Below are positions 1-17,647 of a stretch of DNA of 20,296 bases, piece after piece. A program made the translations under genes and the position numbers. Numbering within the stretch: position 1 is the stretch's first letter; each line of letters starts with the position of its first letter. The notes under the pieces are model-generated. The model saw only the letters and a program-made list of their open reading frames with translations, ran no database searches and had not been told where the DNA came from. The DNA is from a virus: the IMG/VR virus record IMGVR_UViG_3300009502_000249, positions 1 through 20,296 of that record; one strand, 5' to 3'.

Positions 1-318
1 CAATATACGTGTAGGCCGAATGGGGCGCAGTGGTTGAGCAAGTGGGGGATGGAGCAATCTTATGGGGTAATGTATATTTGGGGAGCAGATTTGAATTTTT
101 ATCACGGAGCAGATGTAAGTTACAACTGGAGGAATGTTACTGGAGGTAGGGGTTATATTTACACGACACCTGACGGTATGGTAGCAGGTTTGTACGGTGG
201 CTATTGGTCTGATGGTTTCCTTGCTGGTTCTCGTAATTCGCTTTGGTTTTATTACGTTTGGCTTAGTTTCTACAATATTGGGTTGCGTGGCCGCTGTGAA
301 CATATTGTTGTTCCGTAG
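1..318 (+). CDS. DGR target protein, C-terminal part with variable lectin-like domain (partial)
   Basis: The frame is open from base 1, so only the last 105 codons are visible and the true start lies outside the window. The TTG at 34 is an internal codon, not a convincing start. The C-terminus is the variable repeat of a diversity-generating retroelement: residues 64-98 of the visible part are encoded by a near copy of the template repeat at 726-830. The conserved frame around the variable codons (GG-W-G-AGSRNS-W-YVW, then NIGLRGR) is typical of the C-type-lectin/formylglycine-enzyme fold found in DGR targets. In phages such proteins are usually receptor-binding tail-tip or fibre proteins. 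Variable codons here mostly encode Leu, Phe and Tyr, as expected of a ligand-contact surface. The stop is TAG, 41 bases before the avd start. The assignment as DGR target is firm; the place in the virion is inferred. Confidence 0.88.
   Translation, partial: QYTCRPNGAQWLSKWGMEQSYGVMYIWGADLNFYHGADVSYNWRNVTGGRGYIYTTPDGMVAGLYGGYWSDGFLAGSRNSLWFYYVWLSFYNIGLRGRCEHIVVP
190..294 (+). repeat. DGR variable repeat (VR)
   Basis: These 105 bases align without gaps to the template repeat at 726-830 (offset 536). There are 21 mismatches, and 20 of them sit opposite template adenines: 15 become T, 4 become C and 1 becomes G. Twelve further template adenines are unchanged. The only non-adenine change is T at 218 for C at 754. 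The last 20 bases, ending in GGGTTGCGTGGCCGC, are invariant and correspond to the initiation-of-mutagenic-homing region expected at the VR 3' end. Similarity decays upstream of about 195 and downstream of 294. Confidence 0.95.
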
Positions 319-328
319 CGGAGCGGAA
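311..328 (+). other. Small hairpin just downstream of VR
   Basis: TTCCG (311-315) pairs with CGGAA (324-328) around an 8-base loop that contains the target gene stop codon. Known phage DGRs often carry a hairpin or cruciform shortly after the VR that helps target recognition. This one has the right position, but its 5-bp stem and 8-base loop are weaker than the 7-10 bp stems with tight loops described for the best-studied cases. Confidence 0.3.
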
Positions 329-359
329 GCGAAGTGGAGGAGCAACACTAACTCGTCTT

Positions 360-710
360 ATGGAAGAAGCAATAAAACAACTTGAGATCATTGAAAAGTA
401 CGAAGAGTTTGTCAATTATGTATATCCAATTTGCATTAATATTCCGAGGGGTGGACACGTAACATTGAGGAACAAGATGACGGAGTGCATATTTAATCAG
501 GTGGAATTATTTGTACAGGCGAAGAAATCCAATCAGATATCAAAACTTTACTTAGCGGATGCTGGGTTGGCTCTGCTGAGATTTTATTTACGGTTTTTGG
601 TTCATCCATCCAGAAAACTTATAAGCAATAATCAACATAAAGTAGCGACGACGCATTTATGTGAGGTTGAGGATATGTTGAATGGGTGGGTCAAAACTAT
701 GAAATCGTGA
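360..710 (+). CDS. avd: DGR accessory variability determinant (Avd-like four-helix bundle)
   Basis: This 116-residue helical protein matches the Avd family in length, position and C-terminal pattern. Residues about 70-116 (LLRFYLRFLVHP, then a Q-containing helix, then a final helix ending in LNGWVKTMKS) follow the Avd layout of two long basic helices and a terminal 'E-x-x-L-x-GW' segment. In the Bordetella phage system, Avd forms a pentamer that binds the RT and the template RNA and is needed for mutagenic cDNA synthesis. Here it lies between the VR and the TR, the same order as in phage BPP-1. The start is ATG at 360. A GGAGGAG run near 336-342 is about 17 bases upstream, too far to be an ideal ribosome site. 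The stop TGA at 708-710 lies just before the TR. Confidence 0.85.
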   Translation: MEEAIKQLEIIEKYEEFVNYVYPICINIPRGGHVTLRNKMTECIFNQVELFVQAKKSNQISKLYLADAGLALLRFYLRFLVHPSRKLISNNQHKVATTHLCEVEDMLNGWVKTMKS

Positions 711-725
711 TAGGTTGGTTGTGTC

Positions 726-830
726 AAAAACGGTGGCAATTGGAATGAAGGTTCCAATGCTGGTTCTCGTAATTCGAATTGGAATAATTACGTTTGGAAT
801 AGTAACAACAATATTGGGTTGCGTGGCCGC
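726..830 (+). repeat. DGR template repeat (TR)
   Basis: This is the adenine-rich donor copy of the VR. Read in the target frame it gives a string of Asn codons (AAT/AAC) between conserved Gly, Trp and Ser residues and ends in NIGLRGR. It contains 32 adenines, of which 20 are changed in the VR. AAY codons in a TR are the classic DGR design, since mutating the two adenines gives many residues but no stop codon. The 5' edge is uncertain within a few bases: matching is solid from 731, and 726-730 is a run of adenines. It begins 15 bases after the avd stop and is not itself part of an obvious gene. Confidence 0.95.
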
Positions 831-1019
831 TTTGTGACGGTAATGTATTTTTGGATTTTTTGTTTCCATATGATTATGGTTGTATGGACAAGACCAATGA
901 TTATGTTTGAAATAACAACAGAATGGTCAGCATAACCACCCTGCGATAAGCAAACAAATAACAGGTGATTGCGGTGAATAGTAGAGGTCAAACTCAAATT
1001 TCATCGCAATTTTTTTATT
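831..1019 (+). ncRNA. Spacer of the DGR template RNA, with hairpins
   Basis: This stretch between the TR and the RT has no convincing gene. In Bordetella phage BPP-1 the equivalent spacer is part of the functional template RNA and provides the site where cDNA synthesis is primed, so a structural role is likely here. Two hairpins are visible: CCATA (866-870) pairing with TATGG (875-879) around TGAT, and a strong 11-bp hairpin at 968-1010 followed by a T run, described separately. The exact ends of the RNA cannot be read from the sequence. Confidence 0.55.
968..1016 (+). terminator. Terminator-like hairpin just before the RT start
   Basis: ATTGCGGTGAA (968-978) pairs over 11 positions, with one G-U pair, with TTCATCGCAAT (1000-1010) around a 21-base loop. 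Seven T residues (1010-1016) follow directly. The shape is that of an intrinsic terminator. It lies only 4 bases before the RT ATG, so it could end a separate TR-spacer RNA, attenuate RT expression, or serve as a structural element bound by the RT/Avd complex. The long loop makes efficient termination less certain. Confidence 0.55.
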
Positions 1020-2012
1020 ATGGCTAAAAAATATAAAAACTTAATGCATTTGGTAGTGGAAGATGATAATTTGCGAAAAGCATATAAACAAGCAAGGAAA
1101 AATAAACGGTATAAAAAGGATGTATTGGTATTTAAAGAGAGATTAGAATATAATTTGCAGCAAATCAAAAAGGAGATTTTAGAAAAAACATATAAGGTCG
1201 GTGCTTATAAAAATTTTACTATCTATCATCCGAAAGAAAGAAAAATCTCGGCATTACCATTCAAAGATAGAGTAGTCCAACACGCTTTATGCAATATTAT
1301 AGAACCGTTATTTGATAGATATATGTACTCCTGTAGTTATGCTTGTAGGAAAGGCAAAGGAACTCATCGATGTATGTTCAAAGCACGAGAAATAATTCGG
1401 TCGGTATCAAAAAATACACCATTATTTTTCTTAAAAATGGACTTTAGAAAATTCTTCCCATCCATAGATAAACAAATATTATACAAAGAAATAAACAGAA
1501 AAATAAAAGATAAACATATTCTCTGGCTACTAAATCAAATTATACCAATCACTGGAAAAGGACTTCCAATTGGTAATCTAACCAGTCAATTATTTGCTAA
1601 TGTATATGGAACTATTTTTGACAGATATATCAAACAATCGCTGATGGTTAAACATTATATAAGATATATGGACGATACTGTTATTCTATCCACCGACAAA
1701 GAATATCTAAAGTCGGTGCTCCAAAAATTAAGTTTATTCATAAAAAACGAATTAAATCTGGAATTTTCAAAGTGGTATGTAGAAAATATTAAAAAAGGAT
1801 TAAACTTCGTCGGATATAGAATATTTAGAACCCACACTCTTATAAGAAAATCGTCGGTAATCAGATGTAAAAGAAAGGTTCGAACATATTTATATCATAA
1901 GAACTATAAAGAATTATATAAATCATTAGTGAGTTGGTGCGGTCATATTCAGTGGGCAGATTCCTACAATCTGATGAATTATATTGAAAAGGAAATAAAA
2001 ACATATGAATGA
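1020..2012 (+). CDS. Diversity-generating retroelement reverse transcriptase
   Basis: The 330-residue protein is a compact RT of the DGR clade. Catalytic aspartates are visible in LKMDFRKFFPSID (D141) and in YMDD (216-219). Between them is IGNLTSQLFANVY (184-196); the IGxxxSQ form instead of the QGxxxSP of retroviral and group II intron RTs is the hallmark of DGR RTs and is linked to low fidelity at template adenines. A NFVGYRIF segment follows. No maturase or nuclease domain is attached, and the length is normal for the family. The start is ATG at 1020. There is no Shine-Dalgarno sequence, because the terminator-like hairpin and its T run abut the ATG. The end overlaps the next gene by 8 bases. 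Confidence 0.95.
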   Translation: MAKKYKNLMHLVVEDDNLRKAYKQARKNKRYKKDVLVFKERLEYNLQQIKKEILEKTYKVGAYKNFTIYHPKERKISALPFKDRVVQHALCNIIEPLFDRYMYSCSYACRKGKGTHRCMFKAREIIRSVSKNTPLFFLKMDFRKFFPSIDKQILYKEINRKIKDKHILWLLNQIIPITGKGLPIGNLTSQLFANVYGTIFDRYIKQSLMVKHYIRYMDDTVILSTDKEYLKSVLQKLSLFIKNELNLEFSKWYVENIKKGLNFVGYRIFRTHTLIRKSSVIRCKRKVRTYLYHKNYKELYKSLVSWCGHIQWADSYNLMNYIEKEIKTYE

Positions 2013-2413: not shown

Positions 2414-3952
2414 ATGGCCTCTGAATTTGTAATAAAGAATGGATTAATTTCCAAAGGTAATGTAATAGTTACTGGTAGTGTAGGGATAGGAGTATCTGCA
2501 TTTAACATTACCAATCCTGAAAAACTATTAGTAGATTCCACTGGTAGTAATTCAATAAACATAATAAGTGGATATGGCACCGCTGGTAATTATATACAAT
2601 TAAATATAAAGAATAGGAGTTCTAGTGTTGCCGCTTCATCGGATATAGTTGCCACGAATGATACTGGTACTGAATCTGGTAATTATGTTGATATGGGAAT
2701 AAACAGTAGTGGTTATACTTCTAATTTTGTTGGACAAGCAAATGATGGTTATTTGTATCATACTGGAAGTAATTTATATATTGGAAATGTTACCGCCAAT
2801 AAAAATCTGTATCTGTTTGCTGGTGGTACAACTAATACCGCTTCAATAACTGTTTTATCAAACGGTAACGTCGGCATCGGTACTATAACACCCAGTCAGA
2901 AGCTTGAAGTACTCGGTAATATATCTGCTTCTGGTTATATTATTTCTACCACCGCTGGTTCAAAGATAACTGGTTCATTGTTAGGTACTGCTTCGTGGGC
3001 AACAACTGCGACAACGGCAAATGCAATTTCATTTGTTCCTATAACTGCTACTTCTGCTTCGTGGGTTAGTGCTTCTGTTTTTATTACAACGGCACAGACA
3101 GCATCATACATTTCATCATCTGCAATATTTGATAATAGAGTTTACAATCATACTGCATCGTTTTCAACAAGTGCCAGTTATTCCAATAATTCAACATCGG
3201 CATCCTATGGAATATCTTCTTCTTATAGTTTGAATACCACAAGTGCTTCTTTTGCTATTACTTCGGCATTCGCATCAACTCCGTGGATTATATCGGCATC
3301 AAATGTATATTATAATGCGGGCAATGTCGGCATCGGGACGACGGCACCTACCGCCAAATTTCAGACAGTTGGAGATATTATTGTTTCAAGGATAGCTGAT
3401 GCTGGTGGGGTTATACGAGGAGATAATGTGAATGGAGGTATCGGCGGTGCTTTGAAACTTGGTGTCTCAAACACGGCATCTGATCAATTTATTGCTTTTG
3501 GAACTACGGTTTCTGGTGCGACTGGTGAAGCTGCGTTTACGGAAAAGATGAGAGTATTAAGCAGCGGCAACGTCGGCATCGGTACCACTACACCCAGTCA
3601 GAAGCTTGAAGTACTCGGTAATATATCTGCTTCTGGTTATATTATTTCTACTACCGCTGGTTCCAAGATAACTGGTTCATTGTTAGGTACTGCTTCTAAT
3701 GCTAGTACATCCAGCTATTATACAGCAAATAACTATTTTTGCCGTCAGACACCAATTTCAGGGGCAATAAATGGGTCAAATTATAATTTTACGTGGTCAC
3801 CCCCCCCTATTGCGGGAACAGAAATGGTATTTTGGAATGGTGTTTTATTGAGTTCAGATGGGGACTATACGATTTCAGGCGGCAATGTTACACTAACCAA
3901 TACCCGCATTCCATTGACTGGAGATAAGCTCGTGGCAACTTATTTTGCGTGA
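2414..3952 (+). CDS. Repetitive phage structural/appendage protein (tail fibre-like)
   Basis: This 512-residue protein has low Cys and is rich in Ser, Thr, Ala and Gly. It begins with SEFVIKNGLISKGNVIVTGSVGIG. It carries NGNVGIGT-PSQKLEVLGNISASGYI modules like those of phage fibre shafts and bacterial surface repeats, and long stretches of GTASWA/SASY-type heptad-like repeats. Two modules are nearly identical at DNA level (2867-2994 and 3569-3696), and a third diverged NVGIGTTAPTAKF module lies near codon 305. The C-terminal 60 residues (FWNGVLLSSDGDYTISGGNVTL) form a separate beta-rich cap. No S74 self-cleaving chaperone end is evident. The start ATG is preceded by GAAGGATA. It probably forms an elongated virion appendage; exact placement is inference. 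Confidence 0.8.
   Translation: MASEFVIKNGLISKGNVIVTGSVGIGVSAFNITNPEKLLVDSTGSNSINIISGYGTAGNYIQLNIKNRSSSVAASSDIVATNDTGTESGNYVDMGINSSGYTSNFVGQANDGYLYHTGSNLYIGNVTANKNLYLFAGGTTNTASITVLSNGNVGIGTITPSQKLEVLGNISASGYIISTTAGSKITGSLLGTASWATTATTANAISFVPITATSASWVSASVFITTAQTASYISSSAIFDNRVYNHTASFSTSASYSNNSTSASYGISSSYSLNTTSASFAITSAFASTPWIISASNVYYNAGNVGIGTTAPTAKFQTVGDIIVSRIADAGGVIRGDNVNGGIGGALKLGVSNTASDQFIAFGTTVSGATGEAAFTEKMRVLSSGNVGIGTTTPSQKLEVLGNISASGYIISTTAGSKITGSLLGTASNASTSSYYTANNYFCRQTPISGAINGSNYNFTWSPPPIAGTEMVFWNGVLLSSDGDYTISGGNVTLTNTRIPLTGDKLVATYFA
2867..2994 (+). repeat. Direct repeat copy 1 (fibre module)
   Basis: This 128-bp in-frame module encodes NVGIGT, then PSQKLEVLGNISASGYI, and ends in GSLLGTA. 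It matches 3569-3696 at all but 5 positions, at a distance of 702 bp. Such high DNA identity inside a diverged repeat protein points to recent duplication or gene conversion. Confidence 0.9.
3569..3696 (+). repeat. Direct repeat copy 2 (fibre module)
   Basis: This is the second copy of the 128-bp module at 2867-2994. The differences are clustered near the ACTATA/CCACTA position and in the ACCGCTGGTTC segment. It is placed just before the C-terminal cap domain. Confidence 0.9.
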
Positions 3953-3996: not shown

Positions 3997-5583
3997 ATGA
4001 GCACACCGACATCAGTAAATGGATTACAAATTAAAGACAATACAATTACAGTAGCAGACCTTGATGTTAACAATATCAACGGATTATATCCTTCGCTTTC
4101 GCAATCCAGGGCGCAGCACGCTGTGTTTATTGGACCGATATGGTCTGATGGTGCCCCCACTTTTAGATTACTTGACTCAAGCGATCTTCCAGCCGTTACT
4201 CATGCAACAAATGCTGATACTTCTTCGTTAGCCACAGGTATATCCCCAGGAACATATAGTATAACTTCCTCATGGGCAGTAAATGCCAGTACTGCTGCAT
4301 TAGCTACAGGATTGAATAATACAACATATAATATGACGGCGGCATTTGCTAATGGATTAACTGGTGGATCATACAATATATCTGCCTCATGGGCCAGTGC
4401 ATCAATTAGTGCCTCATATGCAAAAACTTCATCCTATGCAACAAATGCTAGTACTGCAGCACTAGCAACAGGTATATCTCCAGGAACATATAGTATAACT
4501 TCCTCATGGGCCACAACTGCTTCCTATGCGGACAATTCTTCCAAAACAAATATTTTTGCTACTACTCTTGATAGTAATTTTTATCTAACATTTATAACCA
4601 GTGCATTCTCCGCAATGCAATCTTTGTACGCCGATAATAATCTTAAATATAATCCATCAACAACTATATTATCAGTACCAATCATTGCGGCCACAAGTGT
4701 AACTGCTTCATTAAAAGGTACTGCTTCTTGGGCTACTAATGCTAGTACTGCAGCACTTGCTACAGGTATATCTCCGGGAACATATAGTATAACTTCATCA
4801 TGGGCCGTAAATGCCAGTACTGCTGCATTAGCTACAGGTATATCTCCAGGAACATATAGTATAACTTCCTCTCTTGCATTTGGATTGACTGGTATACCAA
4901 TAAGAATTACTGGATCAATAGTTGGCAATGATAGCATTTTATCTATATATAATTCTACTGGAGGAGGAGGGGGGAATACTCTAAACTTAAAAAATGCTGT
5001 GGGAAATTCATATGCATTATTTGATTGTATCAATTCAGGAACAGGACCAATTGCTACATTTAGTGGCTCTGGTAATGTTGGTATTGGTATCACCAATCCG
5101 TTAAATGCATTACATGTATATACTACTACAGTTGCCGATGGAATTTCATTGGACGGTACAACCGACCCCTGTATAGTTTTACGGTCTGCTGGGGTTGTAA
5201 GAGGATACGCACCAGTAGTTGTAACTGCTCCTGGTGATTTCTTTGCAAATTCACTTGCTGGTGATATGGGATTTAGAAGTGAAGGATATAGAATATTGTT
5301 CGGAATAGGTGGCGCTAGTCCAGCAATAATAATATCTGGAAGTGACAATAAAGTAGGAATTAGTATAATTAGTCCAGTAAATAAACTTGATGTATCTGGT
5401 AATATATCATGTTCGGTGATAACAGCATCATTATTTAATGGTACGGCAACACTTGCAAAAACAGCAAGTTATTTAAGTTGTCCGGCTGCGACGGCTCCAT
5501 ATACAGGTGCTATTGATGGATTTATTGAAATCCTTGTTGCTGGTGTAATTAAAAGAGTTCCTTATTACAGATTATCGCCATGA
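3997..5583 (+). CDS. Second repetitive phage structural/appendage protein
   Basis: This 528-residue protein starts with MSTPTSVNGLQIKDNTITVADLDV, a typical N-terminal anchor style for phage fibre-like proteins. The middle consists of Ala/Ser/Thr repeats including four copies of LATGISPGTYSITSS. It then has a GSGNVGIGITNP module (near residue 360) related to those in the upstream gene, and a terminal segment GFIEILVAGVIKRVPYYRL. It lies 44 bases after the related gene, so the pair probably arose by duplication and both may be parts of one appendage. No clear Shine-Dalgarno sequence precedes the ATG. The last 19 bases overlap the convergent glycosyltransferase gene. Confidence 0.8.
   Translation: MSTPTSVNGLQIKDNTITVADLDVNNINGLYPSLSQSRAQHAVFIGPIWSDGAPTFRLLDSSDLPAVTHATNADTSSLATGISPGTYSITSSWAVNASTAALATGLNNTTYNMTAAFANGLTGGSYNISASWASASISASYAKTSSYATNASTAALATGISPGTYSITSSWATTASYADNSSKTNIFATTLDSNFYLTFITSAFSAMQSLYADNNLKYNPSTTILSVPIIAATSVTASLKGTASWATNASTAALATGISPGTYSITSSWAVNASTAALATGISPGTYSITSSLAFGLTGIPIRITGSIVGNDSILSIYNSTGGGGGNTLNLKNAVGNSYALFDCINSGTGPIATFSGSGNVGIGITNPLNALHVYTTTVADGISLDGTTDPCIVLRSAGVVRGYAPVVVTAPGDFFANSLAGDMGFRSEGYRILFGIGGASPAIIISGSDNKVGISIISPVNKLDVSGNISCSVITASLFNGTATLAKTASYLSCPAATAPYTGAIDGFIEILVAGVIKRVPYYRLSP
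4228..4872 (+). repeat. Four-copy coding repeat LATGISPGTYSITSS
   Basis: Four 45-bp units start at 4228, 4462, 4756 and 4828. Each encodes LATGISPGTYSITSS, usually after ASTAA. The copies keep the amino acids but differ in synonymous positions (for example TTAGCC, CTAGCA, CTTGCT, TTAGCT at their starts), which shows selection on the protein. The last two are in close tandem with a 72-bp period. Confidence 0.88.
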
Positions 5584-6659
5584 TCTTCAGGAAATCCATC
5601 AGCAATCATTCTTAATAATTTTTGGGCATGTTTATAATCAGGTTCGGCCCATTCGTGATTATGGATGTTCCACGGAGTTTCTTGTCGTCCATCGGCTTTT
5701 ACCAATGAATAATCTACAAAATATTGGTAATTCTCAGGGAAATATTCGACCTGACCGCCAAACCTGGTTACTATAACTGGTTTATTATTAATATATGCAT
5801 CATATGATGCCAGTCCAAGGCCCTCACCTCTATGAAGCAAATAATAACAATCCCCCAAATTATGAATCTCATTTATTTCTACATTATCATAATTTTCTAA
5901 AAACAATACAAAATCTGGAGGATCTGGAAATTCTTGTAAAATTTCTTCAAACTCCCGCCTAATTTCTAGTTTACCACATTCACTGTAATTTTCCATTGTA
6001 GTTTTAATTAAGTAATTAACATTATCAGAAGATGTAAAAGTTCTACAAAATTCCCGAATTGTGTTTTTATAATTCTTTCTTTCTGTCCAACTACTAATCG
6101 AATAAAAATTAAAAGTTTTGGTTATATCCTTGGTTCCATATTTTATATGAGATGGTATAATTACTTCATCTTTCGGTTTCGAGACAACGAAATTATAACT
6201 CATGTATCGTTTAACAACTATTTTTGTCTTTACTCCACAATTCTTAAATACGTTTTTATTAAACTCGGAAGGAACCCATATTTCGTCTATTATAAAGTTA
6301 TTCATGATTTCTACCCAATGTAAAGGTAATTTGGTAGTTTCCCAAACTGTTTGTAGAATTATTTTACAATGCTCATTTCTTATATATTTTTTAAAATCAA
6401 TACATTCAGTATATAAACTTTTAAAGAGTTCAGGCACAAAATGAATAATAATATAATTATATTCGCTATAAAGAGTTAACGTACAGTCATTGATTTTACT
6501 GTTTATTATATCATCATAATCATGCTTCGAATTATCCACCGTCAACGGTATAAATGTTACATTATACCCATTTTGTAAATAGTTAAACATGAAATATTTG
6601 GATGCTATTGCATAACCACCAGTTCCTGCCGGACTAATATATAATATATTTTTTTCCAT
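5565..6659 (-). CDS. Glycosyltransferase, GT-B fold, GT4-like
   Basis: This 364-residue protein is the only minus-strand gene in the window. The N-terminus (NILYISPAGTGGYAIASKYF) is a Rossmann-like acceptor domain with a Gly-rich loop. The donor-binding half has SSWTERKNYKNTIREF (189-204) and HRGEGLGLASYDAYINNKPVI (276-296). The latter resembles the E-x7-E nucleotide-sugar motif of GT4 enzymes, here with E279 and an Asp (D287) in place of the second acid. FGGQVEYF follows, as in many family members. It likely transfers a sugar from a nucleotide donor to a virion protein, phage DNA or a host surface glycan; the acceptor cannot be told. It has no signal peptide. Its 3' end overlaps the convergent structural gene by 19 bases. 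Its different orientation suggests independent control or acquisition. Confidence 0.85.
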   Translation of the reverse strand: MEKNILYISPAGTGGYAIASKYFMFNYLQNGYNVTFIPLTVDNSKHDYDDIINSKINDCTLTLYSEYNYIIIHFVPELFKSLYTECIDFKKYIRNEHCKIILQTVWETTKLPLHWVEIMNNFIIDEIWVPSEFNKNVFKNCGVKTKIVVKRYMSYNFVVSKPKDEVIIPSHIKYGTKDITKTFNFYSISSWTERKNYKNTIREFCRTFTSSDNVNYLIKTTMENYSECGKLEIRREFEEILQEFPDPPDFVLFLENYDNVEINEIHNLGDCYYLLHRGEGLGLASYDAYINNKPVIVTRFGGQVEYFPENYQYFVDYSLVKADGRQETPWNIHNHEWAEPDYKHAQKLLRMIADGFPEDHGDNL

Positions 6660-7089: not shown

Positions 7090-7647
7090 ATGACTTCGGC
7101 GGAATTCATTTTCGAATATTTCAAAGCCGACCAAGATACAGGTGCGGGATCATATGAAAAAATGATCTCCATCACCAATACTCTCAATTGGGAAGAAATC
7201 AAACCGTATATTCTATCGGAGAAGTATTTTTATTTCTTGAAATCCGCATATTGGCGTATTATCAGTGAGGAAATTAAACGCCGTGCTGGGCGAAAGTGTT
7301 TTTGTGGATGCCGAGAAAACCTCCAGACCCACCATCTTTCATATGACCATCATGGAGAAGAACATTTGTATATGGATAATCTCCAAGTTCTATGTAGTAA
7401 ATGTCATCAAGGAGGTGCCCACAAAGAAAATGTCTCGGTGAAAATTGCTGAGAAAAAACGTCGGCGGGATAATAAAAAAGAAAATATCCTCGCCCAAATC
7501 CCTATCAGTCCATTGAGAGTATCAGAAAGTAATATCACTGGGTCTTCATTCGGATTAACTCGCAAATTATTAGAAGAAATGGAAAGTGAACGCCGAATAT
7601 GGATTGATCGACCACTCTATGATGAATGGCAAATTCACCATATATAA
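7090..7647 (+). CDS. HNH endonuclease
   Basis: This 185-residue protein has a central HNH nuclease module. CFCGC (70-74) and CSKCH (102-106) provide the zinc knuckles. THHLSYDHHGEE (80-91) carries the first His pair and the conserved Tyr and Gly-Glu, and DNLQVLC (96-102) supplies the Asn. This makes a complete beta-beta-alpha-metal active site. The C-terminal 70 residues are basic (KKRRRDNKKE) and may bind DNA. It is probably a free-standing homing-type endonuclease, common in large phages, that cuts related phage DNA lacking the gene. AAAAGG is only 2 bases before the ATG, so the ribosome site is poor. A structured non-coding region follows directly. Confidence 0.87.
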   Translation: MTSAEFIFEYFKADQDTGAGSYEKMISITNTLNWEEIKPYILSEKYFYFLKSAYWRIISEEIKRRAGRKCFCGCRENLQTHHLSYDHHGEEHLYMDNLQVLCSKCHQGGAHKENVSVKIAEKKRRRDNKKENILAQIPISPLRVSESNITGSSFGLTRKLLEEMESERRIWIDRPLYDEWQIHHI

Positions 7648-8005: not shown

Positions 8006-11000
8006 ATGCCAATAGTTGAAGGAGGACGCTTCAGTCCGGAGAACAGAATTACGAGTCCAGGCGTTTTTACCCGGGAGATAGATCAATCGGGTCTTGCTCA
8101 AGGGGTAGCCCAAATAGGTGGTGTCGTAGTGGCACCATTTTCCAAGGGGCCAGGTTTCAGCCCAACCCTGTGTAATACCGTAGCCGAACTCCAACAGAAA
8201 TTCGGTGTTCCCGATGGAACCTTGTATGGTCCATATACCGCAACACAATACCTTCAAGAAAAGGGATTTGTAACTGTTTGTCGTGTTGGTGCCCTCACAG
8301 GATACCACCAAAAGTACCCGTGGTTCATATGGGCAGAAGAAGGTGAATGGACCAGAGCAATTGATCTTGGTTGGACAAACCCAACAGCTTCTTTTGTTTC
8401 ACTTACAGGAACGTATTTCTCGGGGTCAATGACTACATTACAGACTATTCTTGCGGATACATATACATCAACAAGTGCTATGGTTGGAAGTGTCTCTTGG
8501 AGTTATAATTATACTTCGAGCGTTACCAATTTTGGAACTCAAAGTTTTCAAGGTGTACCCACAGCTACAGACCCTTTTTTACTGGTTTTCACACAAAGTA
8601 TAGCCCCATTATCAGTAATTGGTGTTATATCTCAGAGTTATACTCATCAATTTACAACCTCTTACTGGGGATCAATATTCCAGGGGGCGATTGTTTTCCC
8701 ATATGTACCAATCTCAGTCAAATTAATGCCAAATGCTATTAATGCAAGCGGTTCAATTTCTCGGTTCCCAAATATTAGTGCCTCATGGTCAATCCCTAAT
8801 AGTGGTTCAACCCTTTACGCTGGACAGACCATAACAGGACTCGTTAATGCGTTGTTTTATTTTACAACTTCGTTGAATGTTCTTACTGCATCAGTTAATT
8901 CATCTTCGATTGTAGATACTCTTATTGGTGAAGCCAAACTCAAAGGTGATTTGGATATTATCTCCCCATATGGATTCGTCACGGCTACAGAACCATTTGT
9001 TAATGCAGATTTCTGGGAATTTGCCTCAACTCAAATCAGCCAATCAGTTGATTTCTGTGATCGTCCATCGTTGAACTTCCTTGGATTGCTCGAAGGTCCG
9101 ATTGGGTTGTATGATGGTGGATTCATTCCAGGAGCAAATGTAACCTTTGACCAATGTACACAGGCATGGGTAGGTACTGGCTCTGCGTACAAAGTACTTG
9201 CTGTTCTGGCTGATACCGAATGGTCAAGTATTAATACCAAACTCGAAGCTCCTGGTTTTTATGCCTCGACTCAGAGTTATCATCCAGATCCAAATGGAAG
9301 CGCAACAATCGTCCAAGAGTTCAATCTCGATTTGAGCCAATCATTGGATGGTGGATACGGTACATATCACTTCTCACTCGATCCGAACGACCCACAGTAT
9401 ATTACAAATATATTTGGAAGAAGTGCAACAGTTGGAAATCAAGACTTCTATGCACAGGGCACAAAGAAAGAAGCCGCATATCTCTACAAAATCTTTGAAG
9501 ACGATATTGCGACTATCATCGCCGACCCAATTCACTGGAAAGTTCACGGAACTGTGATGCCTTCTGGTTCGTGGATCGATGAACCAATGAATTTCACTGA
9601 CCAGTGGTCTCTCGACCTTCTGAACGGTGACTCAGCATATAGTTTGACCAATGCCTTCACTCCTTGGGTTCTTTCCCAAAAAGTGTCTCCTTGGAATGGT
9701 GGAGTCTCACATCGTTTCCCATTATTCCGTTTTGCGACATTGGCAGATGGCACAGATACTAATACTCAATTCAAGATTGAAATTAATACTGTCAAGTTGG
9801 CTGGCACAGTTGCAGGTAGCGATTGGGGCACATTCACAGTAGTTGTTCGTGATTATAGTGACACTGACAAACGCACCAAGATTCTTGAACAGTATCCAAA
9901 CTGTAACCTCGATCCGACCTCGGCAGACTTCATTGGTCGTCGTGTTGGTGATAGATACAATTACATCCGCTACGATGGTAAAATCATCGAATTCGGAACG
10001 TATAGCAATAACAGCAAGAATATTCGTGTTGAAGTTGCATCAAATCCTTATCCAGTGACAGCGGTGCCTTATGGCTTCCAAGCTTATGCAACGCCAGTAA
10101 ATGGTCAAATGGGTAATTGGTGTAATCCAATTGCTTATACGAAAGCCTCAGTATATGCATTGTATCCAGGCAAATATGCCTCGGGTATTGATTTCAGTGG
10201 TCCTCCAATCGGAGCCGATGCTGAATTAACATCTCTGTATCCTACTGCCTCCACAGGCACGGAACATTGGAGAGATAATCAACAATACTTTGCTCCATTG
10301 CCAGCAGAAGCAAGCGTGGGTCAAAACACAATCTTCGCTCTTGACGAAGTAATCACTGATAATGGTGTGGGCACTGGCTCTTACCTTGATTCGACATTGA
10401 ACGGGGAAATTCCATCCATCTATGATGGAGCAAATGAAACTACCTATATCAAGATGCGTAAATTCGTATTTGGATTCCAAGGTGGATTCACAGGTCAATC
10501 TCCAGCAATTCATATCAATGTGGGAGCAGATATTACTGCTGGTAATACCCAAGGTTTGGATTGTGCTACTAGCACACGGGCTGGTTCGATTGCTTATAGA
10601 CAATGTATCGGTGCTCTTGGTAATGCCGATGAGTTTGACATCAACCTTATCGTAACACCAGGTATCATCTACGGATTGCACTCATATGTGACTAATCTCA
10701 CAGTTGAAATGTGCGAGAATCGTGGAGATTGTTTCTATATTCTTGACCTATACAAAGACGATGGAAATCCAACGTCTGGTCAGATTGATGAGACAGTTTC
10801 TTTTGCAAGCGAGTTTGATACAAGCTATGCAGGCACCTACTATCCGTGGATTAAGATTAAGGATACAAACATCAATCAGATTGTGACCGTTCCTCCATCG
10901 GTGGTTATGCCAGCCGTTTACGCCTCCAACGACAGAGTTGCGGGTGAATGGTGGGCGGCTGCTGGTCTTAATCGTGGTGGTATTGCTCAGGCTACGCAAG

Positions 11001-11452
11001 TAACTGACCGCACCACTCACTTGGAACGTGACACCCTCTATGAGGGCCGCGTCAATCCAATTGCAGCATTCCCAGGCCAAGGCATTGTGGCATGGGGTCA
11101 GAAGACTCTTCAAGTGAAGGCTTCGGCTCTTGACCGTATCAATGTTCGTCGCTTGCTCATCGAAATCAAGAAGTTCTTCGCTTCAACGGCAAGATACTTA
11201 GTGTTCGAGCAGAACACTGCCCAGACTCGTAATAAGTTCTTGGCAATTGTTAATCCTTATCTTGAGAGCGTGCAGCAACGTTCGGGGCTATATGCCTTTC
11301 AAGTTGTAATGGACGACAGCAATAATACTCCCGACTTGATTGACCGCAATATTCTTTATGGTCAAATCTATCTCAAGCCCACCAAGGCAGCGGAGTTCAT
11401 AATCCTTGATTTTAATATTTTGCCTACGGGTGCAAGTTTCCCGAACGCATAA
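8006..11452 (+). CDS. Contractile tail sheath protein (T4 gp18-like)
   Basis: The N-terminus has the classic sheath opening SPGVFTREIDQSG (17-29) followed by VVVAPFSKGPG and an early beta-rich domain. The C-terminal 140 residues form the conserved sheath core: GRVNPIAAFPGQGIVAWGQKT, then the RINVRRLLIEIKKFF helix, TARYLVFEQN, and a final beta strand ending in FNILPTGASF. These C-terminal strands interlock neighbouring subunits and drive contraction around the tail tube. At 1148 residues it is much longer than T4 gp18 (659). The extra mass is in the Ser/Thr-rich middle (about residues 120-900) and probably forms domains facing outward. The ribosome site AAAGGA is well placed. A strong terminator follows 31 bases after the stop. 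Confidence 0.93.
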   Translation: MPIVEGGRFSPENRITSPGVFTREIDQSGLAQGVAQIGGVVVAPFSKGPGFSPTLCNTVAELQQKFGVPDGTLYGPYTATQYLQEKGFVTVCRVGALTGYHQKYPWFIWAEEGEWTRAIDLGWTNPTASFVSLTGTYFSGSMTTLQTILADTYTSTSAMVGSVSWSYNYTSSVTNFGTQSFQGVPTATDPFLLVFTQSIAPLSVIGVISQSYTHQFTTSYWGSIFQGAIVFPYVPISVKLMPNAINASGSISRFPNISASWSIPNSGSTLYAGQTITGLVNALFYFTTSLNVLTASVNSSSIVDTLIGEAKLKGDLDIISPYGFVTATEPFVNADFWEFASTQISQSVDFCDRPSLNFLGLLEGPIGLYDGGFIPGANVTFDQCTQAWVGTGSAYKVLAVLADTEWSSINTKLEAPGFYASTQSYHPDPNGSATIVQEFNLDLSQSLDGGYGTYHFSLDPNDPQYITNIFGRSATVGNQDFYAQGTKKEAAYLYKIFEDDIATIIADPIHWKVHGTVMPSGSWIDEPMNFTDQWSLDLLNGDSAYSLTNAFTPWVLSQKVSPWNGGVSHRFPLFRFATLADGTDTNTQFKIEINTVKLAGTVAGSDWGTFTVVVRDYSDTDKRTKILEQYPNCNLDPTSADFIGRRVGDRYNYIRYDGKIIEFGTYSNNSKNIRVEVASNPYPVTAVPYGFQAYATPVNGQMGNWCNPIAYTKASVYALYPGKYASGIDFSGPPIGADAELTSLYPTASTGTEHWRDNQQYFAPLPAEASVGQNTIFALDEVITDNGVGTGSYLDSTLNGEIPSIYDGANETTYIKMRKFVFGFQGGFTGQSPAIHINVGADITAGNTQGLDCATSTRAGSIAYRQCIGALGNADEFDINLIVTPGIIYGLHSYVTNLTVEMCENRGDCFYILDLYKDDGNPTSGQIDETVSFASEFDTSYAGTYYPWIKIKDTNINQIVTVPPSVVMPAVYASNDRVAGEWWAAAGLNRGGIAQATQVTDRTTHLERDTLYEGRVNPIAAFPGQGIVAWGQKTLQVKASALDRINVRRLLIEIKKFFASTARYLVFEQNTAQTRNKFLAIVNPYLESVQQRSGLYAFQVVMDDSNNTPDLIDRNILYGQIYLKPTKAAEFIILDFNILPTGASFPNA

Positions 11453-11526: not shown

Positions 11527-11555
11527 TTGACATTTGAGTTGGTTAGGAGTATATT
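11527..11555 (+). promoter_or_regulatory. Sigma-70-type promoter for the homing endonuclease gene
   Basis: TTGACA (11527-11532, perfect -35 consensus) and TATATT (11550-11555, 5 of 6 in the -10 box) are separated by exactly 17 bases. Transcription would start about at the ATG at 11563, giving a leaderless or nearly leaderless message. An AGGAG at 11545-11549 lies inside the spacer and could only be used by a transcript starting further upstream. Confidence 0.65.
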
Positions 11556-11562
11556 CATCCAC

Positions 11563-13521
11563 ATGAATAAAGAAGACTTAAAGTTTTTTATTGGAGCAAA
11601 TACTGATAATTACAGTATTCAGTTAAAGCGGCATCATTTAGAATTATATACTGAAATTGACAAATCTTATAATTTCAGTACATTTGGGCAAAAGCTATAT
11701 CATTTTTTATATGGAGATGATAATGGAAAATGCGAAATGTGTGGAAAACAATGTAAATTCGATGGATTATATAAGGGATATAGAAAACGATGTTCCTATG
11801 CTTGTATGGGGCAAAGCAAATACAGTAACAGTCACGAGACCCGCAAATGTGTTATATGTGGTGCCAACTTCGAAATATATAAAAACAGAGAAAAGACAAC
11901 TTGTTCCAATGAATGTTTATTAGAACTCAATCGTTCAGCAGAAGTAACCAATAAGCGGATGACTTCCTTGACGCGAACTATGCTCGAAAAATATGGAGTT
12001 AATCATTCATCAAAAATACCGGGATTCTCGGCAAAACTAAAACAAACCAAGATGGAAAGATATGGAGACGAGAATTATGTCAATATAGAAAAAAGTAAAC
12101 AAACCAAGATGGAAAGATACGGAGATGAAAATTATGTTAATGTGGAGAAAAATAAACAAACTAAGATGGAAAGATACGGAGATGAAAATTATAATAACAG
12201 GGAAAAATTTAAAGTTACTAACATGAAATTATATGGTGTAAAATATCCAATACAGTCTTTATTTTTTAAAGATAAACAAAAAAATACATTTTTGGAAAGG
12301 TTTGGCGGGATTGGTCTTCAATCGCCAGAATTAAAAGAAAAAATATATGCTACCAATTTATCGAAGTATGGATATGAAGTAGCAATACAGAACAAAGATG
12401 TAATAGAAAATTTAAAACGAACATGGTATGATAAAATATATGACCTGTTAATAAATACTGATCGATTGGAAAATAAAGTAAAACCACTGTTTTCCAAAGA
12501 AGAATATCTTGGGTCTAAGGAAGAGTATAAGTTTTTATGTTTAAAATGTAATGCTAAGTTCATCGGAAAGATAGAAGATGGAAAAGTGCCGAGATGTTTA
12601 ACGTGTTATCCATTCACTACAAATTATTCTAAGCCAGAAATAGAAATATTGGAGTTTTTAAAAGATATAGGAATATCCGAGAATGATATAATAACCCATG
12701 ATAGAAAAATATTGGGTGGATTGGAATTGGATTTTTATTTGCCAAAATTTAATATGGCGATTGAATTTAATGGAATGATATGGCATTCCGAATTTATGGG
12801 AAACAAGAATAAATCGTATCATATTAACAAAACCGAAAAATGTGAGAAACTCAATATAAAGTTAATTCATATATTTGAATACGAATGGGAAACAAAAAAA
12901 GAAATTATAAAATCAAAGCTAAAACATTTGTTGAAATTAAATAAGTCGGATATCATCTATGCCAGAAAATGCAAATTACAAGAAATATCATCATTTATTA
13001 AAAATCAGTTTCTAAATGAATATCATATTCAGCATGACGATAAAAGTATGATAGCTATCGGGGCATATTATAATGAGGAATTGGTATCTGTAATGACATT
13101 TGGAAAACCAAGGATAGCATTGGGAAATAAAAAATCTATAGATAATGAATATGAATTATATCGGTTTTGTGTTTCGAAATCTGTAATTGGTATAGCAGGA
13201 AAAATGTTCAAATACTTTATAAAAAACTATAACCCGTCCAAAGTAACAACATATGCTGATCGACGGTTTAGTAACAATACATCGTTTTATAATAAACTGG
13301 GATTTGTGTTTATAAAAAATACGCAACCAAATTATTGGTATTTTTCATTAAAGTCATCATATACTGTGTATCACCGATATTCGTTTAGAAAATCCGAATT
13401 AGCAAAAAAATTATCTGTATTTAATCCTAATTTAACGGAGTGGCAGAATATGCAGATGAATGGTTATGATAGGATATGGGACTGTGGAAATTTGAAATAT
13501 GAATGGATAAGGGAGGAATAG
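11563..13521 (+). CDS. Homing endonuclease-like protein, Vsr/EDxHD nuclease with zinc fingers and NUMOD-like repeats
   Basis: I start it at ATG 11563 (652 residues), because the only longer start is a TTG that overlaps the -35 box. Numbering is from this ATG. Paired Cys knuckles occur at 57-81, 96-118 and 326-348. Residues 160-216 are three tandem 19-residue repeats KQTKMERYGDENYVN, within a longer series of 'T-x-x-YG' units like NUMOD-type DNA-binding repeats. The nuclease core at 357-409 reads SKPEIEILEFL, LELDFYLP, IEFNGMIWHSE, fitting the E-D-x-H-D arrangement of the I-Bth0305I/Vsr-like class (E359, D390, E401, H408). A C-terminal domain (about 440-640) with AIGAYYNEELVSVMTFGKPR and TYADRRFS resembles the C-terminal part of many phage-encoded homing nucleases. 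It sits between a terminator and the next structural gene and overlaps that gene, as expected of an invading element. Confidence 0.85.
   Translation: MNKEDLKFFIGANTDNYSIQLKRHHLELYTEIDKSYNFSTFGQKLYHFLYGDDNGKCEMCGKQCKFDGLYKGYRKRCSYACMGQSKYSNSHETRKCVICGANFEIYKNREKTTCSNECLLELNRSAEVTNKRMTSLTRTMLEKYGVNHSSKIPGFSAKLKQTKMERYGDENYVNIEKSKQTKMERYGDENYVNVEKNKQTKMERYGDENYNNREKFKVTNMKLYGVKYPIQSLFFKDKQKNTFLERFGGIGLQSPELKEKIYATNLSKYGYEVAIQNKDVIENLKRTWYDKIYDLLINTDRLENKVKPLFSKEEYLGSKEEYKFLCLKCNAKFIGKIEDGKVPRCLTCYPFTTNYSKPEIEILEFLKDIGISENDIITHDRKILGGLELDFYLPKFNMAIEFNGMIWHSEFMGNKNKSYHINKTEKCEKLNIKLIHIFEYEWETKKEIIKSKLKHLLKLNKSDIIYARKCKLQEISSFIKNQFLNEYHIQHDDKSMIAIGAYYNEELVSVMTFGKPRIALGNKKSIDNEYELYRFCVSKSVIGIAGKMFKYFIKNYNPSKVTTYADRRFSNNTSFYNKLGFVFIKNTQPNYWYFSLKSSYTVYHRYSFRKSELAKKLSVFNPNLTEWQNMQMNGYDRIWDCGNLKYEWIREE
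12040..12210 (+). repeat. Three tandem 57-bp coding repeats
   Basis: Units at 12040-12096, 12097-12153 and 12154-12210 each encode 19 residues beginning KQTKMERYGDENY. The first 13 residues are identical in all three; the last six vary (VNIEKS, VNVEKN, NNREKF). Synonymous differences exist but DNA identity is high, suggesting recent expansion of a DNA-binding array. Confidence 0.92.
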
Positions 13522-17041: not shown

Positions 17042-17647
17042 ATGAAAAACTCAGAATACACAATTTTTTTGGACATGGATGGCGTACTTGTTGATTACAG
17101 TAGTGGGTGGTGGACAATTGCTAAGCAAATTGGCATTAAGCCTATAGAAGTCCAGGGCAAGACAGATTATAGGAAGGATGATGTTGCCCGAGTTCATGAT
17201 CAAACTCGCAGTTCTAAATTCTGGGAATCTTTAGCATGGGAGCATGGTGGGCAGGAATTATGGGATGTGGCAAATGACTTATTTGAGAATATTCATATAC
17301 TTTCATCAACGGCTACTGGAAAAGATATTGAGGCTGGTAAAATTGTAGAGGAAGGAAAACTTGAATGGATCAAACACAATCTTCGTCCACATCTTCCGCC
17401 TGGCAATATTCATATTGTCTCTGGGGGTGTTTTAAAGGCTAAGTTTGCCAATCATTTATCAATTCTTGTAGATGACCGTAAAAGTACAATTGATGCATTT
17501 GTTCAGGCGGGTGGATATGGTATTCTTCATGATGCAAACAAGTATCGTAAAACCATTGAAGAATTAAAGGAAATTGCATCACCACTAAGTCTTGGTGAAA
17601 TTGCTCATGGATTGATGTCAAGACGCCAATTATGGCATCCTGCCTAG
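17042..17647 (+). CDS. HAD-superfamily phosphatase, 5'-nucleotidase C-like
   Basis: This 201-residue protein has all four HAD motifs. Motif I is FLDMDGVLVDY, with nucleophile D11 and acid D13. Motif II is ILSST (87-90 region). The motif III lysine lies in LKAKFANH (K132 or K134). Motif IV is ILVDDRKSTID, with D144 and D145. The DMDGVLVD form, the size and the Trp-rich cap (FWESLAW) resemble 5'(3')-deoxyribonucleotidases (NT5C family), which dephosphorylate nucleoside monophosphates. A role in phage nucleotide metabolism is likely, but some phage HAD proteins act on polynucleotide ends. ATG 17042 lacks a Shine-Dalgarno sequence at normal distance; GGAG lies 28 bases upstream. It is followed 13 bases later by the final multidomain gene. 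Confidence 0.83.
   Translation: MKNSEYTIFLDMDGVLVDYSSGWWTIAKQIGIKPIEVQGKTDYRKDDVARVHDQTRSSKFWESLAWEHGGQELWDVANDLFENIHILSSTATGKDIEAGKIVEEGKLEWIKHNLRPHLPPGNIHIVSGGVLKAKFANHLSILVDDRKSTIDAFVQAGGYGILHDANKYRKTIEELKEIASPLSLGEIAHGLMSRRQLWHPA

Follow-up and report, generated by a model that had tools for sequence, protein, structure and literature searches.

Evidence for a BPP-1-type DGR in a myovirus that is probably a jumbo phage

Background

A 20,296-base record, which is a fragment of a viral genome and was taken whole as the window of this analysis, opens with a pair of imperfect repeats lying close to a reverse transcriptase (RT) gene. This arrangement raises the question of whether the cassette is a diversity-generating retroelement (DGR), to which type it belongs and whether it is still at work. 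Our results showed that the cassette is an ordinary, well-supported DGR. We are highly confident that it is a BPP-1-type DGR of a (probably jumbo) myovirus, operating by the mechanism proposed below and likely acting on two mtd targets.

Accessory gene and reverse transcriptase

Gene avd (accessory variability determinant, 116 aa) occupied positions 360-710 and the DGR reverse transcriptase gene (330 aa) positions 1020-2012, both on the + strand. Avd matched Pfam bAvd (PF22296) at 1.4e-28, exceeded the cut-off of the NCBIfam model DivGenRetAVD (NF033474) and was similar to the solved Avd structure 4dwl (8.5e-25). The RT was recognized by RVT_1 (1.2e-17) and by the PHROG RT family (5e-120), and displayed 44% identity with BPP-1 bRT over 98% of the length. 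Likewise, its best match among solved structures was BPP-1 bRT (8ub7, 2e-86), the next RTs following at 6e-17, and group II, retron and DRT models all remained far under their cut-offs. Both catalytic motifs were intact (IGNLTSQ at 1569-1589 and YMDD at 1665-1676); judged by its sequence, this is a DGR-type RT. A sequence-only reading of this DNA had proposed an Avd-like gene, a DGR-type RT with these two motifs and a BPP-1-like gene order, and all three proposals held, the order in the window (target-avd-TR-RT) matching that of BPP-1.

Template and variable repeats

The variable repeat (VR, 194-298) and the template repeat (TR, 730-834), both on the + strand, are 105-nt repeats of each other. 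Their 3' ends are formed by a GC-rich IMH-like stretch (280-295) and an IMH*-like stretch (816-831), respectively. Translated in the VR frame, TR reads NGGNWNEGSNAGSRNSNWNNYVWNSNNNIGLRGR. The earlier count of 20 mismatches out of 21 at TR adenines between 190-294 and 726-830 was reproduced exactly (hypergeometric p=2.6e-12), and none of the mismatches in this comparison fell on a VR adenine. Positions 190-193 recur unchanged in another VR from this phage type, which probably places them beyond the repeat; they were left out and the conservative core 194-294 was used for counts. This core contained 17 mismatches between VR and TR, 16 of which were at TR adenines (p~3e-10). The sole remaining change (TR C754, VR T218) is private to the window VR, as the sister VR keeps C.

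Such a bias is hard to reconcile with a chance repeat, or with a plain tandem duplication followed by neutral drift and involving no retroelement. No point in favour of this reading was found, RT and Avd are in place next to the repeats and relatives show the same pattern. We give it practically no credence, since RT, Avd and adenine bias jointly refute it.

One trait of the window VR differed from other DGRs and was counted against the DGR explanation preferred here. Its adenine changes within 194-294 led to T (12) or C (4) but never to G (0 of 16), whereas G accounted for 46% of changes in 44 other TR/VR pairs, none of which was devoid of it. The sister VR at L091 (see below) was also T-rich (10 T, 3 C and 3 G). 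T-rich and G-free changes could reflect selection on residues or a different error profile of the RT.

Target gene

Only the 3' end of the target gene is present (1-318, + strand), its ORF being open to the left edge of the window as previously described. The fragment codes for the C-terminal 105 aa, i.e. the C-type-lectin part, of an Mtd-like receptor-binding protein and matched the tail protein family phrog_11262 (3.7e-19). It is 88% identical to a full-length target (463 aa, L091:5986-7374) located terminally on an IMG/VR contig of 82,907 bases, where this complete target is followed by a second one cut by the contig end. The full-length L091 target matched the solved Mtd of BPP-1 (1yu2) at E=5.5e-55. 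This similarity covered the second and C-terminal domains, while the N-terminus and a stretch of ~75 aa after the second domain were without counterpart in Mtd. A close correspondence was also observed at the codon level: in the compared part, nine of the ten AAC codons of the BPP-1 TR align to AAY codons here (Fisher p=1e-5), the tenth aligning to GAA. On these sequence comparisons the truncated target is an Mtd homologue. The lectin-like target proposed earlier is likewise borne out by full-length relatives homologous to Mtd, for which solved structures display a C-type lectin domain. An AlphaFold model of the full-length target built from a five-row alignment was unusable (mean pLDDT 28), so the fold assignment rests on Mtd homology.

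The target of one relative (L005:132-1823) displayed ~95 extra residues inserted within its lectin part. By eye, this insert resembles the ~75-aa stretch found ahead of the lectin domain in all these targets.

Relatives and a second target

Four IMG/VR contigs (L002, L003, L004 and L005) carried an RT 81-85% identical to that of the window. L003, which belongs to a 368,758-base phage contig, displayed two tandem targets (465 and 459 aa) ahead of avd, and the differences between their VR cores and the single TR were all at adenines (14/14 and 10/10). The same held for L005 (18/18). L003 and L004 were identical across 7,947 bp, VR included.

The targets of the window and L091 differed at 18 of 101 VR sites, 17 of them at TR adenines, compared with 4 of 247 sites outside VR (VR vs flank p=1.6e-7). 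In addition, the L091 VR displayed 16 differences from the window TR, all at adenines. Change between these two targets is confined to VR and to adenines (all but one VR site), whether they are paralogues or orthologues from sister strains. Common descent of changes in both VRs was considered and discarded, as 7 shared changes were counted and ~5 are expected by chance from base frequencies.

When placed on the 369-kb relative (G001), L091 ended at 116,100 and the window started at 116,185, the two being colinear. The L091 contig is probably the left neighbour of the window, as indicated by this placement, with the break inside the repeated target, and both would then derive from the same genome. 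It is very probable that one TR serves two tandem mtd paralogues in this phage type, so that a single genome may possess two binding tips that vary independently of each other. A different origin of the two contigs, with the L091 target as a sister-strain orthologue and perhaps a single target in the window phage, seems rather unlikely to us and would still leave the cassette a DGR. The 84-nt gap between L091 and the window, which has no sequence cover, and the four differences outside VR fit such an origin; yet both contigs end within the repeated target, colinear with G001, and G001 itself contains two tandem targets.

Phage context

A myovirus structural context had been proposed for the window and was confirmed by a tail sheath protein (1148 aa, 8006-11452, + strand; phrog_23 at 1.9e-70, Phage_sheath_1), which is ~60% identical to its counterpart at 137-140 kb of G001. 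From its relatives, the window is probably a piece of a jumbo phage: set against the >200 kb of this class, the window measures 20.3 kb, the colinear relative 368.8 kb and the candidate neighbour 82.9 kb. No DNA-level match to the window was found in the phage collection, and searching for the patterns of the VR flank and of TR retrieved no further strains.

The RT stop is overlapped by 8 nt by a 98-aa ORF (2005-2301, + strand), which is 91% identical in the L003 and L004 contigs and kept beside the DGR in both. Its assignment as a homologue of BPP-1 bbp4 was rejected, no match to bbp4 being observed. Further downstream are two repeat-rich, tail-fibre-like ORFs (2414-3952 and 3997-5583, + strand), the first matching a PHROG tail fibre (3.9e-6); repeats of the same type occurred in fibre-like ORFs of L003 and L091. 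In the interval from the fibre genes to the sheath gene, weak matches pointed to a glycosyltransferase-like gene (5565-6659, - strand) and an HNH-endonuclease-like gene (7090-7647). A 664-aa protein (11527-13521) combined DUF7487 with a weakly acetyltransferase-like end and internal repeats KQTKMERYGDENY. Since it has homologues elsewhere in G001 and in G005, it is possibly encoded by a mobile endonuclease-like gene. Towards the right edge, the ORF at 17042-17647 starts with a HAD-phosphatase-like motif (FLDMDGVLVDY), and a large ORF from 17661, open at the edge, gave weak nucleotidyltransferase-like and acetyltransferase-like domain matches.

Spacer RNA and priming

According to PMC12875486, cDNA synthesis is primed by an internal adenine of the spacer. 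The spacer RNA (Sp) between TR and RT extends here from 835 to 1019 (+ strand) and contains TGGTCAGC at 924-931. Conservation was high, with a mean column identity of 91% across the TR 3' end and spacer of four phages, and three pairs displayed compensatory change among the four sequences. A cmscan analysis aligned 872-1010, including the invariant UGGUCAGC core, to the full length of Rfam RF03022 (Phage_DGR) at a sub-threshold 24 bits (threshold 50), BPP-1 itself reaching 104.7 bits in the Rfam spacer comparison. Positions 845-1012 gave a full-length, again sub-threshold alignment to RF02921 (RT-14). A929, within the window TGGTCAGC, aligns with A56 of the BPP-1 Sp, which we take to be the priming adenine; on this alignment A929 is a candidate priming site. 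The status of TGGTCAGC as a general DGR mark was rejected, as among 53 spacers the exact motif was limited to this clade and BPP-1, making it a mark of the subfamily.

RT-14, RT-9 and Phage_DGR all matched the window spacer at one place, below threshold in each case. Five DGR loci (L008:5783-5944, L013:5840-5966, L016:3639-3807, L018:5762-5930 and L020:5837-5981) moreover contained an above-threshold RT-14 (RF02921) in the interval separating TR from RT, so that RT-14 looks like a DGR spacer RNA. This suggests that RT-14, RT-9 and Phage_DGR form one broader family. A type II hammerhead ribozyme (45.4 bits) was also recorded in a DGR-carrying viral contig (L008:10434-10499).

Homing signal

Phage DGRs are known to display a GC-rich hairpin of 7-10 bp with a 4-nt GRNA loop, located 4-34 bp past VR (Guo et al., PMC3240598). 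No canonical GRNA hairpin was found in five targets of the present clade (including those of the window, L091, L003 and L005), where stems with a 4-nt loop were at most 5 bp long. Throughout the data set, such stems reached at least 7 bp in 20 of 51 targets and were shorter in many others. Directly after VR, at the place of the canonical hairpin, the window displayed an inverted repeat, TGTTGTTCC / GGAGCAACA (306-347, + strand), with one G.T and a loop of 24 nt. The form common to the clade is TGTTGTTCC...GGA(A/G)CAACA (GGARCAACA) with a 24-25-nt loop, and both L003 targets as well as L005 displayed it with a perfect stem of 8-9 bp. When the stretch of the second L003 target was shuffled, 7 of 2000 shuffles reached 9 bp. 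Folding of L003 with DNA parameters gave the outer stem of the inverted repeat topped by a GC-GGAA-GC apex, whereas the minimum-energy fold of the window is a different one.

The inverted repeat after VR may be a homing signal. A wider proposal, which we put forward tentatively as possible rather than probable, is that the clade homes via this long inverted repeat (~25-nt loop, possibly with the GC-GGAA-GC apex) instead of the GRNA hairpin, and that one TR varies two tandem Mtd paralogues to produce a tail tip with two specificities.

Activity and proposed mechanism

Concerted evolution of TR and VR was apparent across lineages. The TRs of the window, L003 and L005 differed pairwise at 9, 9 and 2 non-adenine sites, where VR carried the base of its own TR in 18/18, 18/18 and 4/4 cases. 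VR tracking its own TR at 40/40 such sites across three lineages indicates that TR-to-VR transfer has recurred, since divergence at these sites would be expected if copying had not been repeated. The sequence-only reading had called the DGR probably active. It receives evolutionary support from this tracking, and from two VRs that differ nearly only at TR adenines. DGRs are in general broadly active (Roux et al., PMC8144416). The window DGR may well be active today, and variation of its target would be a means of tropism switching.

It could also be that the DGR once worked but has fallen silent in this lineage, e.g. through decay of the homing hairpin, leaving TR and VR as frozen records. The missing canonical hairpin (window, L091, L003 and L005), the non-adenine change at 218/754 and the identical VRs of L003 and L004 are all compatible with this, but RT, Avd and target reading frames are open and free of stops, and the spacer RNA is strongly conserved. 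Adenine sites distinguish two VRs found in one phage type, VR follows TR from lineage to lineage, and absence of the hairpin is common to a clade that kept homing. We therefore regard silencing as improbable.

For the preferred reading, a BPP-1-type DGR, all parts were observed, together with adenine-specific TR/VR differences, two VRs differing at TR adenines (but for one site) and the concerted evolution of both repeats. Besides the missing A-to-G changes, points that speak against it are the identical VRs of L003 and L004, the missing canonical hairpin and spacer scores under the curated Rfam thresholds. According to the proposed mechanism, an avd-TR-spacer RNA would be bound by RT and Avd, a spacer adenine (A929 by alignment) would prime cDNA synthesis through TR, and the RT would misread template adenines. 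The resulting cDNA, with its mutations, would take the place of VR in the 3'-terminal part of the target gene; the GC-rich 3' end common to both repeats (IMH) and the inverted repeat after VR would guide this step. The C-type-lectin face of the Mtd-like receptor-binding protein would be rewritten at about a dozen residues.

Comparison with known systems

DGR surveys have recorded >30,000 loci. Our literature searches, whose coverage was incomplete, found no description of an Mtd-type DGR in a jumbo phage. The Mtd-like tail fibre of 'Escherichia phage T7' LR745708.1 (L121) was rejected as a natural case: this entry is annotated as a T7-BPP-1 chimaera and, being man-made, is not countable as a natural Mtd host.

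The BPP-1 DGR (mtd-avd-TR-brt) has the gene order, strand and single TR of the window. Its target (Mtd), Avd and RT are homologous to those found here, the diversifiable residues nearly coincide and the spacer core (TGGTCAGC...CCTGC) is the same. Yet BPP-1 is a 42-kb phage, whereas the window belongs to a myovirus with a 369-kb relative, and the two RTs are only 44% identical. Further differences are the two tandem targets of the window phage type, the N-terminus and ~75-aa stretch of these targets, and the canonical 8-bp hairpin with a GAAA loop after the BPP-1 VR, which is absent from the window. The window thus extends the best-studied DGR type, with solved Mtd, Avd and RT, to very large phages with duplicated targets. 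Priming site, homing signal and the rule of varying residues can therefore be compared at this level of RT identity, and the clade is a natural setting in which to test how strictly a hairpin after VR is required.

The relatives L003/L004 (368.8-kb phage), L005 and L002 display the same layout and adenine-only core VR/TR differences. They differ from the window in silent TR bases, and for L005 one target is in view, whose lectin part contains an inserted domain. DGRs with several VRs are common, representing 28.6% of 948 (PMC6642488), and in them a single TR serves at least two VRs or target genes, as is very probable for the phage type of the window. Two targets were also described for the DGRs of phages nd4 and nd12 (PMC10743442), although these are different proteins there and tandem Mtd paralogues here.
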